From the NCBI GenBank assembly GCA_029778615.1, contig JAKOPZ010000117.1:1-64000 (forward strand): a stretch of 64,000 nucleotides of DNA, in the 5' to 3' direction. A program made the position numbers and the translations under genes. Positions 25,984 to 35,544 of this stretch are shown here, one piece after another. The notes beneath the pieces were generated by a model, which ran no database searches, was not told where the DNA came from, and saw only the letters and a program-made list of their open reading frames with translations. How positions within the stretch are numbered: position 1 is the stretch's first letter; each line of letters opens with the position of its first letter. Origin of the DNA: Chloroflexota bacterium (lineage in GTDB: Bacteria > Chloroflexota > Anaerolineae > UBA4142 > SHND01).

Positions 25984-26061
25984 TGCGCGAAATTATATCG
26001 GTTTTGGGCGCGCGTGAATAGGGGGATTGCGCGCGCGCCGCAATTCTGCTTTAATCCAAAC

Positions 26062-27819
26062 ATGTCCGAACTTTTCCGCCGCGCGCTTTTGCCTTCGCTC
26101 GAAATGCTCTTGTTCCTGCTCGTGTTTTACATGTCGCTCTTTTTCATGCCCGACATGCTCAACAGCGACGGCGATTTGGGGCGCCACCTCACCGTCGGCA
26201 ATTACATTCTGGACACGCGCACCATTCCGACACAAGATGTTTTTTCGCATACACGCTACGGTGAACCGCTCGTCTTGCACGAATGGCTGAGCGAAGTGGT
26301 GTACGCGTTCGCGTATCGCGCGGCGGGTTTGAACGGCGTCGCGTGGCTCACCGCGCTGCTGCTCGCGATGATTTATTTCGTGCTCGCCATCGGATTGCGC
26401 GCGTTGGGCGTGAGCGCGCCGCTCGCGTTTCTCGCCGCGTTCGCCGCGTACTGGACGGGCATGATTCATCAACTCCCGCGTCCGCATCTTTTTACACTGT
26501 TGTGTTTTACGATTTTTATTTTGTGCATTGAAATGTATCGGCGGCGCGCATCGTACGGAACGAACGCCGTTTCGTCCCCGCCTTCGTTCCCATCCGGCGG
26601 CGCGGAACGTTACGGCGATGCGGAACGTTACCGCGACATGGAACGTTACCGCGACATGGAACGTTACCGCGACACGGAACGTTACCGCGACACGGAACGT
26701 TACAGCGAACGTTCCCTACCGACATCGTACGGAACGAACGCCGTTTCGTCCCCGCCCCGCGATGCGGAACGTTACGGCGATGCGGAACGTTACGGCGATG
26801 CGGAACGTTACGGCGAACGTTCCCTACGAATTTCGCGGTTGTTGCCTCTTGGGTTTCTCTTCCCCATTACCGTCCTTTGGGCAAATTTCAACGGCGCGTT
26901 TGTGTTGGGATTTTTTGTTTTGGGCTTGTACATCGTCGGCGCGCTATTGGAACGCGAACTGCGGGACGTGTTAATGTTCATCGGCGCGCTTGGCGTCGTT
27001 TTCGTCGCGTCGCTTGTCAATCCGTTCGGCATCGGTTTGGTGCAGCACGTTTTCGGATTCATGGGCAATCGTTTTTTGGTGGACAATACGGTGGAATATC
27101 TTTCGCCGAATTTTCACAACATCAGCGCCTGGCTCTTTGGCGCGTGGATTGTGTTTGCAATTCTGTTATTTGGGCGATTCACAACGCGCGTGCGCTGGAC
27201 GGCTCTCCTTTTGCTCGGCGCGTGGACCGCGTTCGGTCTGTATTCCGCGCGCAACATTGCCAATTATGCGGTGGTCGCCGCCATTGTAACGGCGCCGGTT
27301 GCGGAAATGTGGGTCGTGAACGCGTCCGCGTTTGTGCGTACACGACTGGAAAATCTGGATCGCGTCGCGCCGCGCGGCGCGGGTTGGGGGTGGGGCGTCG
27401 CGCTTGTCGCGCTGCTCATTTTTCTGCAAGCGCAAGGAATCCATCTTGACGCGCGCGACGAGGGGAATCAATTCACGAATCGCGCGTTTCCCGTGAGCGC
27501 GGTGGATTATTTGGAAAAAAATCCGCCGCCGGGCAATGTATTCAATGAATACACGTGGGGCGGTTATTTGGAATATCGTTTGTTTCCAAAACAACGCGTG
27601 TTCATTGACGGCGATAATGATTTTTTCGGCGAAGCGTTGGTGCGCGAATATTTGCAGGTGGTGAATGCGCGCGAAGGTTGGGAAAACATTTTGGAAAAAT
27701 ATAAAGTGCGCTGGGTGCTCGTGCCGCCCGAACGCGCGCTCGTCCAAGCTTTGGCGCGTTCGGAACATTGGCATCAGGTTTACGCGGACGCGTACGCGAG
27801 TGTGTGGGTAAAAGAATAA
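26062..27819 (+). CDS. Multi-pass membrane protein, GT-C-like, with expanded tandem repeats
   Basis: 585 residues from the ATG at 26062 (MSELFRRALLPSLEMLLFLL). About ten hydrophobic helices, with an early outside loop LNSDGDLGRHLTVGNYIL and a soluble C-terminal part (VFIDGDNDFFGEALVREYLQ). The overall plan resembles GT-C glycosyltransferases, but no diagnostic motif was found, so the role is unknown. Between the helices near residues 155 and 255 lies a repeat-encoded insert: two copies of SYGTNAVSSPP and nine hexapeptides of the type ERYRD(M/T) or ERYGDA. The insert is likely a recent expansion in a loop facing the cytoplasm. Divergent from the SARP regulator. Confidence 0.72.
   Translation: MSELFRRALLPSLEMLLFLLVFYMSLFFMPDMLNSDGDLGRHLTVGNYILDTRTIPTQDVFSHTRYGEPLVLHEWLSEVVYAFAYRAAGLNGVAWLTALLLAMIYFVLAIGLRALGVSAPLAFLAAFAAYWTGMIHQLPRPHLFTLLCFTIFILCIEMYRRRASYGTNAVSSPPSFPSGGAERYGDAERYRDMERYRDMERYRDTERYRDTERYSERSLPTSYGTNAVSSPPRDAERYGDAERYGDAERYGERSLRISRLLPLGFLFPITVLWANFNGAFVLGFFVLGLYIVGALLERELRDVLMFIGALGVVFVASLVNPFGIGLVQHVFGFMGNRFLVDNTVEYLSPNFHNISAWLFGAWIVFAILLFGRFTTRVRWTALLLLGAWTAFGLYSARNIANYAVVAAIVTAPVAEMWVVNASAFVRTRLENLDRVAPRGAGWGWGVALVALLIFLQAQGIHLDARDEGNQFTNRAFPVSAVDYLEKNPPPGNVFNEYTWGGYLEYRLFPKQRVFIDGDNDFFGEALVREYLQVVNAREGWENILEKYKVRWVLVPPERALVQALARSEHWHQVYADAYASVWVKE
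26551..26817. repeat. In-frame 18-bp tandem repeats with duplicated 32-bp flank
   Basis: Six 18-bp units at 26602-26709 and three at 26764-26817, each containing GGAACGTTAC. A 32-bp segment starting TCGTACGGAACGAACG is present at 26551 and again at 26725. All units are whole codons, so the membrane protein frame is kept. Confidence 0.9.
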
Positions 27820-29976: not shown

Positions 29977-30020
29977 AAAAACGGAAGGGTTTGCATCAAG
30001 CGACCCTTCCGTTTTTTTTT
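29977..30020. terminator. Bidirectional terminator between GNAT and C25 peptidase genes
   Basis: ACGGAAGGGT (29981-29990) and ACCCTTCCGT (30003-30012) form a stem, with a T-run to 30020 on the plus strand and an A-run to 29977 that serves the minus strand. It lies between converging genes; the C25 stop codon touches it. Confidence 0.88.
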
Positions 30021-33000
30021 ATTGCACGCTAAACATCCACCATGCGCTCGGACGACAGCCGTATTCATTGCACGCTTTGATGCGCCAATAGTACGTGTGT
30101 CCGGATTCCAGTCTCGCCGTGCGAAAGAACGTTTCGGATTGAAGCGCGCTGTAGATGCGCGGACCATTTTTGGCGTCCGCGCGCACAATCACGCGGAAAT
30201 CGGTGGTACACGAATCTCCGCTCCATGTCAGACGGACTCGCTTTTTCGAAATTTCTTTGTCCTTGGGTGGTGTGAGCAGCAAAGCTTTGTCCGGCTTGTC
30301 CACACACAACGACGGCGCAGGTGTAAAGGTTGCCGTGAGCGTTGGTGTATTCGTCGGTGCGTCCATCGGCGTCTCGGAGGGCAATCCGGTTGGAGTACTC
30401 GTTGCCGTGTCGGATGGCAAATCGGTCGGAGTACTCGTTGCCGTGTCGGGTGGCAATGGAGTTGGTGTGCTCGTAAGCGTGTCGGTTGGCACTTGAATGA
30501 ACGGCGGCGTATTGGTCGCCGTGAACGTTGGCGTGTTCGAAGGCAGTGCCGTTGCCGTAAACGTTGGTGTGTTGGTTGGCGATGCGGTCGGAATCAACGT
30601 CGGCGTATTGCTCGGCGTCAGCGTTGGCGTGTTGGTTGGTGTCAAGGTCGGCGTGTGAGTTGGCGATGCTGTCGCGGTCAACGTCGGCGTACTCGAAGGC
30701 GTCACCGTCGGCGTATTGGTTGGCGTCGGCGATGGTGTAAATGTGCTCGTCGGCGTCGCGGTATTTGTTGGTGTATCGGTTGGCGTCCACGTCTTGAGCG
30801 GGTCCCACGTGCTCGTCGGCAGCGGTGTGTTGGACGGGGTGAATGTTGGCGTGTTGGTCGGCGTGTTCGTCGGTGATGGTGTAATGGTGTTGGTCGCTGT
30901 AGCAGTCGGCGTATCGGTCGGCGTGTTGGTCGCCGTCGCAGTCGCCGTTGCTGTCGCGGTCGGTGATGGTGTTATGGTGTTGGTTGCTGTCGCCGTTGGC
31001 GTATAGGTTGGCGTGTTGGTTGCCGTCGCAGTCGGCGTATTGGTTGGTGTGTTGGTGGACGTTGATGTTCGCGTCGGTGTCGAGGTGCGGCTCGGCGTGA
31101 ATGTTTGTGTCGGCGATGGAGTAATGGTCGGCGTGTTGGTTGCCGGTGGCTGCAATGCGTCGGGCAAATTCAAAAGCGTGCCGGGGTCACCCAACAAGTT
31201 GAATGTATCGAGCAAGTCCTTGTGCCCGCCGCCCGTTTGGGTATACAAATAAACTTTGCTCGCGACGGTAGCGAGCCCCACGCGCACTTTGCCGCTTTGC
31301 GTAATCGCTTCAAAAAATCCGCGGTCCAAATAATCATGTCCGCTCGCGACGCCCAAACCGGTTGGCGCAAAATCACCAATCGCGCCGCCCCCCGCTTGCC
31401 GCACCATCGCTTCACCGATGCTTGTTGATGCGCCAGCATGAAAGTATCCATCAAAACAAGTCATGGGCATCATGAACGGATAGCGCGGTTCGCCCGATGT
31501 GGGAATTAATGATGCGGCATCGGCAGACCTGAGAAAATTATTTGCGTAAGCGGTGACCGCGCCGTGTCCGACATAATTGACAATGAGTCGCCCGTCTTTG
31601 ATTCCATCCAAAACTGCGGTCCGCGCGGTGCCCGCATTGCTGTAGGTGGTGTACGGATAGGAACACCAGGGATAGCTCGCGGTATTTGTGCAAGGATTAT
31701 AGTAGATGCGTTCGAGATTGTTCGTCAGCGGAGCCGGCACATAGTACGGGTCACCCGCAACTTCTTCTGAAAAGCCAAAGAAATCACCCGCCGGGTCCAT
31801 CGTTCCATTCGACTCGTAGGTGTTATCGCTGATGAACATGACCTTTCTGCGCCATCCACCTGTCGTGGTGACGTTTTCATAATCAAGCAGTTTGGCGACC
31901 ATATTGTCCACGTCGGTTGCCGAAAGCGCGGGCAAGCGTCCAATCGCCATGCTCGGCAAATCACTGCCCGCGTCGAGCGTAACGAGACGGTGGTCACTGG
32001 CTGTCATCCCAATCCAGGGGTCAACGAGTTTCATATAAATGGGAATATAGGTTGGCTCGTTGTTGCCATTGTCAAAATTTCCATTGCCAACTAGCAGCAC
32101 ATACGAAGGCGCGGGCGATTGCCAATTGGCGTACGCATATTCCAGAAAATTGCGAATCGCCTCGGCGCTCTTCATTCCATAATTGAACTCGTCATAAATG
32201 TCTTCTACATCAATCATTTTGACGCGTCCCATCACGGCGCGTTGGGCGACCAACGGCTGCAAATTATTTTTCCATGCCCCATAGGTGATGATGATATAGT
32301 CCGCGCCATTGGAGGGGTCTGCCAAATTCGAGGGCGCATCTTGCACAACACTCATGGGTGTTTTGAACTGCGATGTGGCTAAGGCAACATATTCGTGCGA
32401 ACTATTGATTTGGTCACTAAAGATGCCGTCAAATGTTCCGCCATTTGCGGACGCACTGATATTCAATTTTGCAACATTCGTGGGGTCGGTAATGTCGTAT
32501 GCGACGAGATTGGAATTGGTGAATCCCTGAATCCGATACTGCCACGTTCCCGCATCGGAATATTTGAAGCGGAGCATGTCGCTTGATGCGATGAATTGAG
32601 CGGGGTAGTCGAGCTCCAAATAGTTGAGGAAAACCAAAATCCCAGTGCTGGGATAGGGTCGGTCTTGGATGCGAAACGTGTTTGTGCCACTGACAAGATT
32701 GTTAACGTTTGTAGATTCCAAGAGACTTGTACCTGAGAGCCAATCCTGCTGATTCACCTGCGTACCATTCGAGTATAATGTTGATTGTAAGTTGTAATAA
32801 GGATTTGCCTCAGCACCCGATTGAATGAATACACGCAATACGCCATTCATCGTTTCTGGAGCAAGATCAGTTAAGCTAGTTGTGACATCTGTATAACCAG
32901 TCGCGGTAAGATTTACAAACTTCCAGACCCAATGATCTGCGTCTTCAATGAACGGGGCATACGTAATATAGCCAGCGTTCTGTTCAATATGAAGAGTTTT

Positions 33001-34113
33001 GGTATAGCTGGATGGAGTTGTTCCTCCACTAATGTTCTGTATTGACATCCGTTTTCCATTGCTACCACCATAGGTCAACCAATATACGTTATAAGGAATT
33101 GTGTAGTCACTCGGTGCTTGTCCAAAGAACAAAAGATATTCTCCGTTCTCGCACTTCTTATTTCCATTTTCGACTATTTCAATTCCAACTTCGTTTCCTT
33201 GATACGCGAGCTTGAGCGTATCTAAATTCACACTGTTGGCATCGAACCCCTTGGCGATTAGGTCATCGCATGTTAGCTTATAGATTCCGTCTGCATTCAC
33301 CGAAATTTTAAAGGAGTTCACCGCACCCGCCGCGCGTTCGGTAGGTGAAATATTCGTCGTCCGACGTTGCGGCGTTCGCCATGCGCGACCCGAATCGTAA
33401 TTCGCCAACGATTGCTTTAGAATCGCTTCAAAGCCCCCTTCATTCACCACACTTCCGACCAGTTCTTGTTGCGCATTTGCGCCCAAACCGAAACTAATTT
33501 CCAGACGCATCTTTTTGTGGACGGTCAATTCGCGCGTCGCGGCATTGTATTGAAATGGATTCAACTGGACGCGAATATAACGCTGACTGCGCCACTGCGC
33601 GGGGGCAGTAGTTGAAACCCGTTCGGACGGATAAAGCGTGGCAGAAGCATAAGCAGCCGAGTCAGGAACATAGTCCAATCCCACAAATTGTGGAAGCTCT
33701 TCAGGAGAATTTTGAACAACGCGGGTTCGAGGGGAAGGCAGAACGGGATAGACAAGGGTTTCCTTGATAGCGTAGTCTTGCGTGATGTTTGCCTGGATCC
33801 GTGCGCGCTGCGGAATAGCGAGCAGTACGCCAAAGATAGGCAGCTGCGGTTTGCCAACTACATCTGTTTTGCCCGCACCTTGTGCCTCAAGTTCAAGAAA
33901 GGTCGCACCGTTAAATATGCGTTGACTCTTGTTCAAGGAAGGAGTGGTTAATTCCAAAACAATATGCTGTTCGGTAGATTCGACAACCTGTACTTGTCCA
34001 GAACTGCCATTCGGGGCGGCTTGTAACTGGATAGGCGTGCCAATACAAATGATGCACAAGGGAATCATCAAGAGAAAAATAATGCCGAGAACTTTCACTT
34101 CCGTTCCTTTCAT
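30019..34113 (-). CDS. Exported C25-family (gingipain-type) cysteine peptidase
   Basis: 1364 residues with a signal peptide ([20 protein letters not shown]). An N-terminal propeptide-like beta region (to about 270) is followed by binding domains and a caspase-fold C25 peptidase region (about 600-1000). The catalytic dyad is visible as His in NYVGHGA and Cys in [11 protein letters not shown]. After it come about 275 residues of Thr-Pro-rich repeats, then a fibronectin III-like domain ([30 protein letters not shown]). C25 enzymes cut after basic residues or mature surface proteins. The Thr-Pro stalk probably spans the cell wall. It lies 166 bp downstream of the PqqD-Tat-Cys gene on the same strand. 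Confidence 0.9.
30315..31145. repeat. Thr-Pro stalk-encoding low-complexity repeats
   Basis: Degenerate GTTGGCGTG/TTGGTCGGC-like units encode [14 protein letters not shown] and similar across about 275 codons of the C25 peptidase, between peptidase and C-terminal domain. The similar but shorter linker in the propeller gene at 17271-19049 suggests a common stalk design. Confidence 0.85.
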
Positions 34114-34174
34114 GGCGCTGTGCTGCTTTAAAGCTTGTCAAAATCGAAAAAGCCGCAACCTTATTACAAACTGC

Positions 34175-34220
34175 AACTCGACAGCAAGACCGCTCATATT
34201 GCAGCGACTCCTGTCGAGTT
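34175..34220. promoter_or_regulatory. 10-bp inverted repeat upstream of the C25 gene
   Basis: AACTCGACAG (34175-34184) and CTGTCGAGTT (34211-34220) are perfect inverted repeats with a 26-bp loop, between the PqqD-Tat-Cys gene and the C25 gene. No T-run follows on the minus strand, so it is more likely a regulatory or leader hairpin than a terminator. Confidence 0.5.
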
Positions 34221-34279: not shown

Positions 34280-34771
34280 TTATGATGGCGGTTCACATAA
34301 ACTCGAAGCGTTACAGACGCAACCATCTTGGGATCCAACACACTGACCAAGTGTACAAGCCCCACCGCACGAAAGTGCCGCCATCGCGGGACTCGGCGCT
34401 GCCAACGCAATCACCACCGGTATCGCCACAGCCGCGCCGACGATTCCTGCTTTGACCAAAAAGTCGCGGCGGGTCATGTGATTGTATTGCGCGGGAACGA
34501 TGACGCTTTCTTGGAGCAAATGTTTCTTGTTTAGTTGTTCCAAAGCATACCACACCACACGCACGTCAACCATAGTACCTAATTCGCGCGACATTTTCTT
34601 GGCAATGTCCGAAACGCTCGTTTTCCCATCCGCAAATTTCCAAACCAGCGCGGCGGTGGGATTCAAACAGCTCGCCTGGTCGCGTTCAAGGTCATAAATC
34701 AAGATTTCGTCTTTTAATGGCTCGACAATCATTCGCTCGTGGCGGGCACTTGGGAAAATCAAAGCAGACAT
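34280..34771 (-). CDS. PqqD/RRE domain fused to Tat signal and six-Cys cyclotide-like tail
   Basis: 163 residues from the ATG at 34771, behind GGGGGAGGAC. Residues 1-90 are a PqqD-type domain (DEILIYDLERDQASCLNPTA; LVWKFADGKTSVSDIAKKM; ALEQLNKKHLL), the RiPP recognition fold. Next comes a twin-arginine signal, TRRDFLVKAG followed by GAAVAIPVVIALAAP and cleavage near AMA. The last 30 or so residues hold six cysteines spaced C-x3-C-x4-C-x6-C-x1-C-x5-C, the spacing of cyclotide or knottin cystine knots. The PqqD domain should stay in the cytoplasm and the Cys tail be exported. No radical-SAM, YcaO or disulfide enzyme gene is nearby. A C25 peptidase gene follows 166 bp downstream. The function is unknown. 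Confidence 0.82.
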   Translation of the reverse strand: MSALIFPSARHERMIVEPLKDEILIYDLERDQASCLNPTAALVWKFADGKTSVSDIAKKMSRELGTMVDVRVVWYALEQLNKKHLLQESVIVPAQYNHMTRRDFLVKAGIVGAAVAIPVVIALAAPSPAMAALSCGGACTLGQCVGSQDGCVCNASSLCEPPS

Positions 34772-35154
34772 GAGTCCTCCCCCAAAAAAATGTTTTCTCC
34801 TCAAAACGGTTGTCACCGCGCGAGAGTTCCGGACAAACTATCAGGCAGCGCCAAAGCTGCCGACAAGTTTGCAAATACAATCCAGCATTACGGATTATGC
34901 GCCAGACTTTGCATTTGTCAATACATCTTTGGTGCCAAGACCGATACAAATAAAGTCTGGCGGGACTAGACCCCAAAACACGAGCTCGGAAATTCCTTTG
35001 CCGCGCCCGTTGCGCACACACGCCAAACCCCGCCCGTATCATATAGAACAAGGGTAAAGATTCATATTAAGAGCCGGGTCGGCGCAGACAACCGTTTTCA
35101 GCAGAGTTGAAGATGTATCCCGATACACCCCTGTCGAATGAAAATGGGGATGCT

Positions 35155-35412: not shown

Positions 35413-35544
35413 TGACACAGTACATCACAATTTCACTTTTTGGGCGCGGATTTTCGCGGATGAACGCGGATTTCTAAATTGGTTTTTGCTTTTTCCGCGT
35501 TTAGCCGCGTTCATCCGCGTCCAAATCTGTGATGTACTGTGTCA
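35413..35544. mobile_element. 132-bp MITE-like palindrome with 17-bp perfect ends
   Basis: TGACACAGTACATCACA (35413-35429) is the exact reverse complement of 35528-35544. Inside are CGCGGATGAACGCGG and CCGCGTTCATCCGCG, so most of the element is self-complementary. It is non-coding. A related but shorter inverted repeat with CGCGAAT arms lies at 42973-43053. Confidence 0.83.

Follow-up and report, generated by a model that had tools for sequence, protein, structure and literature searches.

The DNA analysed here, a stretch of 64,000 nucleotides referred to below as the window, carries on its minus strand a small gene that encodes a putative exported precursor and, directly behind it, the gene of a large extracellular-type peptidase of family C25. 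The 163-codon gene called at 34280–34771 in the initial annotation is real and lies on the minus strand; a GGAGG sequence at 34776–34780 stands four bases before its ATG, and the same interval read on the plus strand is riddled with stops. The features of the locus are as follows.

34894..34921, minus strand: promoter-like TTGACA-16-CATAAT 5' of the precursor gene, 11/12 consensus matches; a consensus match only
34280..34771, minus strand: PqqD-Tat-Cys precursor CDS (P0001), 163 aa, ATG at 34771
34514..34732, minus strand: RRE/PqqD-fold domain, about residues 14–86 (PF05402, AlphaFold2 and Foldseek)
34379..34480, minus strand: twin-arginine signal MTRRDFL, hydrophobic stretch and APSPAMA, about residues 98–131 (TIGR01409)
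34283..34378, minus strand: predicted mature mini-protein, residues 132–163, 32 aa, six Cys (3-4-6-1-5), from the sequence
34150..34179, minus strand: terminator-like hairpin between the precursor gene and the C25 gene, 1 found against 1.4 expected in shuffled sequence
30019..34113, minus strand: C25 peptidase (gingipain/PorU-type) with propeptide, catalytic domain and Thr/Pro-rich linker (PF01364, PF08126)

Promoter-like sites in the precursor region number three against 1.1 expected, and the hairpin carries no statistical weight because its count is not above the shuffled expectation. Two further features of the window stand apart from these genes. A MITE-like element of 132 bp at 35413–35544 has perfect 17-bp terminal inverted repeats, an internal perfect 15-bp inverted repeat, and three near-full copies (95–100%) plus fragments in the genome; at 26014–27819 a membrane-protein ORF holds in-frame ERYRDxERY-type repeats in mid-protein, apparently a tandem repeat expansion. 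PADLOC gave no match to known defence systems, a phage origin was rejected for want of any relative in viral_contigs, and a plasmid origin likewise, the plasmid search having returned a single weak match to the PqqD part only.

The encoded protein had been read as a PqqD-like domain followed by a Tat signal and a six-Cys tail, and each of these parts was borne out. The PF05402 (PqqD) match passes its cut-off (E=5e-6, 27.2 bits against 23.4). RREs are defined by the order of three strands followed by three helices (PMC12710340), and the AlphaFold2 model of the full precursor (22 family members, mean pLDDT 86) shows this order, with strands at 14–18, 23–27 and 32–36, helices at 38–46, 53–64 and 70–82, and block pLDDT values of 92–97. 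The best PDB matches found by Foldseek, with modest E-values, are the lasso-peptide RRE TbiB1, PqqD and a second lasso B1 protein, TbiB1 (TM by target 0.75) being the solved RRE nearest to the precursor leader; an RRE-type fold is supported for the N-terminal domain as modelled. Residues 120–124, in the hydrophobic stretch of the Tat signal, were modelled as a low-confidence strand. The signal itself passes TIGR01409 (19.0 bits against a cut-off of 16.7), and the protein has the twin-arginine motif, the hydrophobic stretch and the AxA site of a Tat substrate; this last site looks cleavable, with cleavage predicted after residue 131, between AMA and A.

The gene is apparently a member of a bacterial family without earlier description: in the literature searched, which was incomplete and covered few subscription journals, we found no description of an RRE-Tat-disulfide mini-protein fusion. 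The window genome holds three paralogues besides the precursor, four precursors in total, of which one (C61) has a C-C-CC-C-C tail, another (C265) a collagen-like Gly-X-Y tail with no Cys, and the third (C5) a different Cys tail and a position adjoining an HprK-like kinase gene and an NTP_transf_5 gene. In the window genome, the paralogue at L003 1384–1929 (minus strand) ends in a Cys-free tail of collagen-like GAT repeats. PqqD-Tat proteins were found in all five of the same-genus genomes searched. A leader profile comprising PqqD plus Tat with the tail left out (A2) gave strong whole-leader matches in 8 of 400 Chloroflexota genomes, and the family is common in part of the Acidobacteriota, with strong matches in 24 of 297 genomes; the wide scan was made with alignment A3. 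From the fetched loci we assembled 66 non-redundant members whose leader reaches the signal region. In the alignments, positions P7, R10, E22, D27, L36, G49, R101, R102 and P126 of the leader are kept, the last three invariantly in both A2 and A5, and an AxA-like site was detected automatically in 65 of the 66 homologues, in some of them placed too far upstream. A tandem PqqD-Tat copy at L081 6898–7366 runs over two reading frames and is probably a pseudogene or a sequencing error.

What follows the leader is a different matter. Outside the Cys residues, tail identity at about 90% leader identity is 30–62% for three of the pairs compared, with 93% for a fourth, near-identical pair; it falls to about 40% at 70–80% leader identity and to about 28% for distant pairs. 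Across the 66 Chloroflexota and Acidobacteriota homologues a conserved leader is on these alignments joined to a hypervariable tail. Cys makes up 17.4% of the homologous tails as against 1.3% of the leaders. In the homologue tails the spacing of the cysteines is not kept, with 53 distinct spacings among 58 tails, yet the Cys number, from 2 to 18, is even in 58 of 58 short tails (under 150 residues and with at least two Cys), tails that share kinship and hence are not independent but in which the Cys count shifts many times and the parity never. By this measure the Cys pattern of the tails is non-chance, and the even parity fits fully disulfide-bonded secreted mini-proteins.

The window tail, ALSCGGACTLGQCVGSQDGCVCNASSLCEPPS, has exactly the spacing C-x3-C-x4-C-x6-C-x1-C-x5-C that had been noted, and in this, as well as in a weak profile and structure similarity, it is like plant cyclotides and knottins. 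Modelled alone from its single sequence it reached a mean pLDDT of 82.6 and drew Foldseek matches mostly to knottins of the kalata B8, MCoTI and EETI-II type, a likeness that is only suggestive because the E-values are 3–10 and Z is about 2. The specific relationship to cyclotides that the initial annotation had raised is not supported. The tail scores 11.9 bits on Pfam Cyclotide (PF03784) and fails the cut-off of 25, the leader is a bacterial RRE-Tat leader, and the spacing is unstable even within the genus, where other members have 3-5-3-1-4, 3-9-3-1-6 and 6-5-6-1-4; since same-genus homologues are spaced otherwise, the cyclotide spacing, one pattern among 53, most likely arose by convergence. 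We therefore rejected cyclotide homology, and on the comparison of spacings the window's arrangement is a variant within a disulfide-rich family and no mark of cyclotide ancestry. A general ICK spacing fits 18 of the 58 tails against 7.6 in shuffles, and the tail of one member (L105) passes the Pfam Omega-toxin family of ICK toxins (23.3 against a cut-off of 22).

Seven of the 66 tails have no Cys and are collagen-like, Gly-rich or Thr/Pro-rich, or are almost absent (L122, ending in EAYD, and L030, ending in AYSW). Cys-rich cargo is thus the rule and not a necessity, the leader may carry other cargoes, and the tail is no universal substrate of a single chemistry, so that a kinase may act on the leader. 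In two loci (L068 7424–8557 and L069 6690–7796) a PqqD-Tat leader is joined to a large glycine-rich domain, which in L068 matches ALK_LTK_GRD at 8.7e-19.

The observation that no modifying enzyme is adjacent to the gene holds for the window and not for the genome, where an HprK-like kinase is encoded elsewhere and adjoins a paralogue. With a kinase profile built from the neighbours of PqqD-Tat genes, and with thresholds chosen after the hits had been seen, strong HprK-like matches (E<1e-50) occur in exactly the same 8 of 400 Chloroflexota genomes as the strong PqqD-Tat matches (Fisher 7e-17), and a kinase is present in 24 of 24 Acidobacteriota genomes with strong PqqD-Tat matches among the 297 scanned. 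A lenient Acidobacteriota table (25/1/2/269; Fisher 6e-33) counts G466, with weak matches, as having both and G490 as having the precursor only; in G490 the PqqD-Tat gene lies at a contig end, adjoining an NTP_transf_5 gene, and the HprK-like matches without PqqD-Tat, in G530 and G659, lie beside unrelated genes. All six window-genus genomes and G008 have the kinase; among six genomes of the same order that lack PqqD-Tat (G006, G007, G009–G012), five are kinase-free and G009 gives a weak match. In the genomes scanned the family thus occurs almost only together with an HprK-like kinase. The kinase is usually single in the window genus; it adjoins one of the four precursors in G000, and in G003 a second kinase adjoins a member with a Thr/Pro tail. 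No PqqD-Tat gene was found at the kinase locus examined in G001, G002, G003, G004 and G005, and there are up to about six precursors per kinase. Being mostly encoded away from the precursors in the window genus, the kinase must work in trans there, if it acts on them.

The kinases beside several members align as one family with a P-loop and an invariant Lys, His and Asp, residues compatible with the His-Lys-Asp-Asp motif of the lasso-peptide tailoring kinases. By analogy with these, we think that the RRE-fold leader is probably what the kinase recognises, and that phosphorylation of the precursor probably takes place in the cytosol. The 66 members show no single conserved phospho-acceptor; a C-terminal Ser acceptor, as for the lasso kinases, was rejected, the C-termini varying among members, and a Ser or Thr within the first four mature residues in 60 of 66 is a lead only, such residues being common there. 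NTP_transf_5 was also rejected as a specific partner, for every one of the 21 genomes tested has it, the negatives among them. One gene of L071 (1990–3687) joins an NTP_transf_5 domain to a signal peptidase I (S26) domain; its region also encodes an HprK-like kinase and a PqqD-type protein with almost no tail. The kinase evidence also bears on an arrangement without cleavage, in which the Tat helix would anchor the cytosolic RRE and dock the HprK-like kinase, the tail serving as a disulfide cap or sensor. The kinase co-occurs with the leader and not with any one type of tail, one leader is common to collagen-like, Gly-rich and Thr/Pro cargoes, and of the nearly tail-less members one adjoins the kinase (L122) and one lies about 6 kb from it (L030/L071), all of which suits an anchor; a small residue at -1/-3, however, is kept in nearly all members exactly at the boundary of leader and tail, as in signal peptidase substrates, and the neighbour in L071 is the signal peptidase fusion just mentioned, and we consider an uncleaved anchor unlikely.

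The peptidase gene, the next downstream of the precursor gene on the common strand at a distance of 166 bp, is a C25 gene (PF01364 1.6e-74, PF08126 1.6e-17) in which the GHG and TCFD motifs are present. The proposed look for conserved neighbours bore fruit for C25, which turns up again beyond the window's lineage and also outside its phylum, and gave nothing for radical SAM enzymes, whose CxxxCxxC motif did not appear in the 267 neighbours called. Among the 42 strong C25 genes in PqqD-Tat genomes, 12 have a PqqD-Tat gene no more than 5 kb away, where 0.17 would be expected; some of these adjacencies are syntenic copies in the window genus and not all are independent, those in G008, G447, G671, G711 and G527 being separate loci. 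Both phyla have an instance of the order HprK, PqqD-Tat, C25, in Chloroflexota G008 (L064) and Acidobacteriota G527 (L138), and in G671 (L139) the order is C25, PqqD-Tat, NTP_transf_5, X, HprK, C25. On this recurrence the neighbouring C25 peptidase is likely a functional partner of the precursor, and since C25 is absent from 5 of the 21 PqqD-Tat genomes searched it is frequent without being obligate. In two Acidobacteriota genomes a similar large protein follows the PqqD-Tat/C25 pair (L081 13192–15705 and L135 1–2274), by eye a polysaccharide chain-length regulator, which hints at a link to surface polysaccharide.

The same adjacency could mean that the tail is secreted to inhibit, activate or stabilise the C25 peptidase encoded beside it, as a pair of protease and knottin inhibitor, with the RRE only delaying export. 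Lys and Arg are scarce or missing in many of the tails encoded next to C25, and the knottins that the tail model resembles include the squash trypsin inhibitors EETI-II and MCoTI. This explanation nevertheless leaves the kinase unexplained, most members lie away from C25 genes, the five genomes just counted have none, and the number and spacing of the Cys are too variable for a single inhibitory loop; it seems to us improbable.

The reading that we prefer, and to which we would give about an even chance as a whole, is that of a precursor handled through its RRE, phosphorylated by the kinase, exported through the Tat pathway, cleaved at AxA and released as a disulfide-bonded tail with which the C25 peptidase has some role. 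The N-terminal RRE-fold domain would stay in the cytosol as a shared handle for the HprK-like kinase, which, encoded elsewhere in the genome, would recognise several precursors and phosphorylate them before export. Tat exports proteins after translation, and post-translational export of the precursor would leave time for phosphorylation. Signal peptidase would then cut at AxA and free a tail of roughly 20–100 residues, in most members a mini-protein with all its Cys paired as disulfides outside the cell, and the co-encoded extracellular C25 peptidase may act on or with the released tail, in maturation, in ligation, or as the tail's target. That the tail Cys instead bind a metal or an Fe-S cluster loaded in the cytosol is very improbable, for although Tat commonly exports cofactor-loaded proteins and the signal region is weakly like that of a Rieske subunit (0.018), with a further likeness to the arsenite oxidase small subunit, the Rieske match is confined to the signal region, and Cys numbers from 2 to 18, always even and in 53 spacings, speak for disulfides rather than a fixed cluster.

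The proposed phosphorylation and export of the precursor have their nearest known parallel in lasso-peptide tailoring. There the precursor peptide receives a phosphate from HPr-kinase homologues before it folds, and PsmN attaches hexoses to that phosphate (PMC9266682; PMC8498205). The family shares with that system (RRE B1 with PadeK, ThcoK or PsmK, and PsmN) an RRE fold nearest to the lasso B1 protein TbiB1, an HPr-kinase-type kinase with invariant H, K and D, and NTP_transf_5 often beside the kinase. It differs in that the neighbours examined included no recognised lasso cyclase or B2 protease, RRE and putative substrate form one protein, export is by Tat, and the tail is of a disulfide type, with no lariat and no conserved C-terminal Ser. 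A second parallel is the HPr-rel-A cassette (TIGR04352 HprK_rel_A, TIGR04353 PqqD_rel_X), an HprK-related kinase and a PqqD-like gene often with NTP_transf_5; here too an HprK-like kinase is present with a PqqD-type gene, and in Chloroflexota Tat-less PqqD genes also adjoin HprK-like genes (L033, L035, L039, L041 and L042). In the present family, however, the PqqD protein bears a Tat signal and a variable tail, and the scores fall under the curated cut-offs (about 45–58 bits against 200 for the kinases on TIGR04352, and 23.5 against 35 for the PqqD protein of L077 on TIGR04353). With the same incomplete literature coverage, no paper was found on the combination of HprK, PqqD and nucleotidyltransferase. 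The Cys-Xaa-Xaa-Xaa repeat radical SAM target TIGR04117 likewise has a Tat-like signal and then a Cys-rich tail, but the precursor scores 25 bits against a cut-off of 50, and radical SAM modification was rejected as no CxxxCxxC was found in 267 neighbours, called by a simple script that possibly missed some genes. Judged by its sequences, the family resembles the module of lasso RRE and HPr-kinase tailoring yet misses the curated cut-offs of the named cassettes.

The initial annotation had suggested a protein that carries its own recognition domain in cis and exports a folded or modified mini-protein, an interpretation that is partly supported. A bolder step, which we offer tentatively and think somewhat unlikely, is that these proteins form a new class of ribosomal peptides, in which cis-RRE precursors would undergo HprK-like phosphorylation, Tat export and maturation outside the cell by a C25 peptidase or transpeptidase to give hypervariable bacterial mini-proteins of knottin-like type. 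Plant cyclic knottins are matured by clan-CD peptidases (asparaginyl endopeptidases), a parallel by analogy only. The family would supply a natural and diverse collection of disulfide mini-proteins secreted by bacteria, and because their leader can be recognised, a search could start from the leader and need not rely on the tail. The fusion in cis also hints at the substrate of the poorly understood HprK-related kinase/PqqD cassettes, a question that is directly testable.
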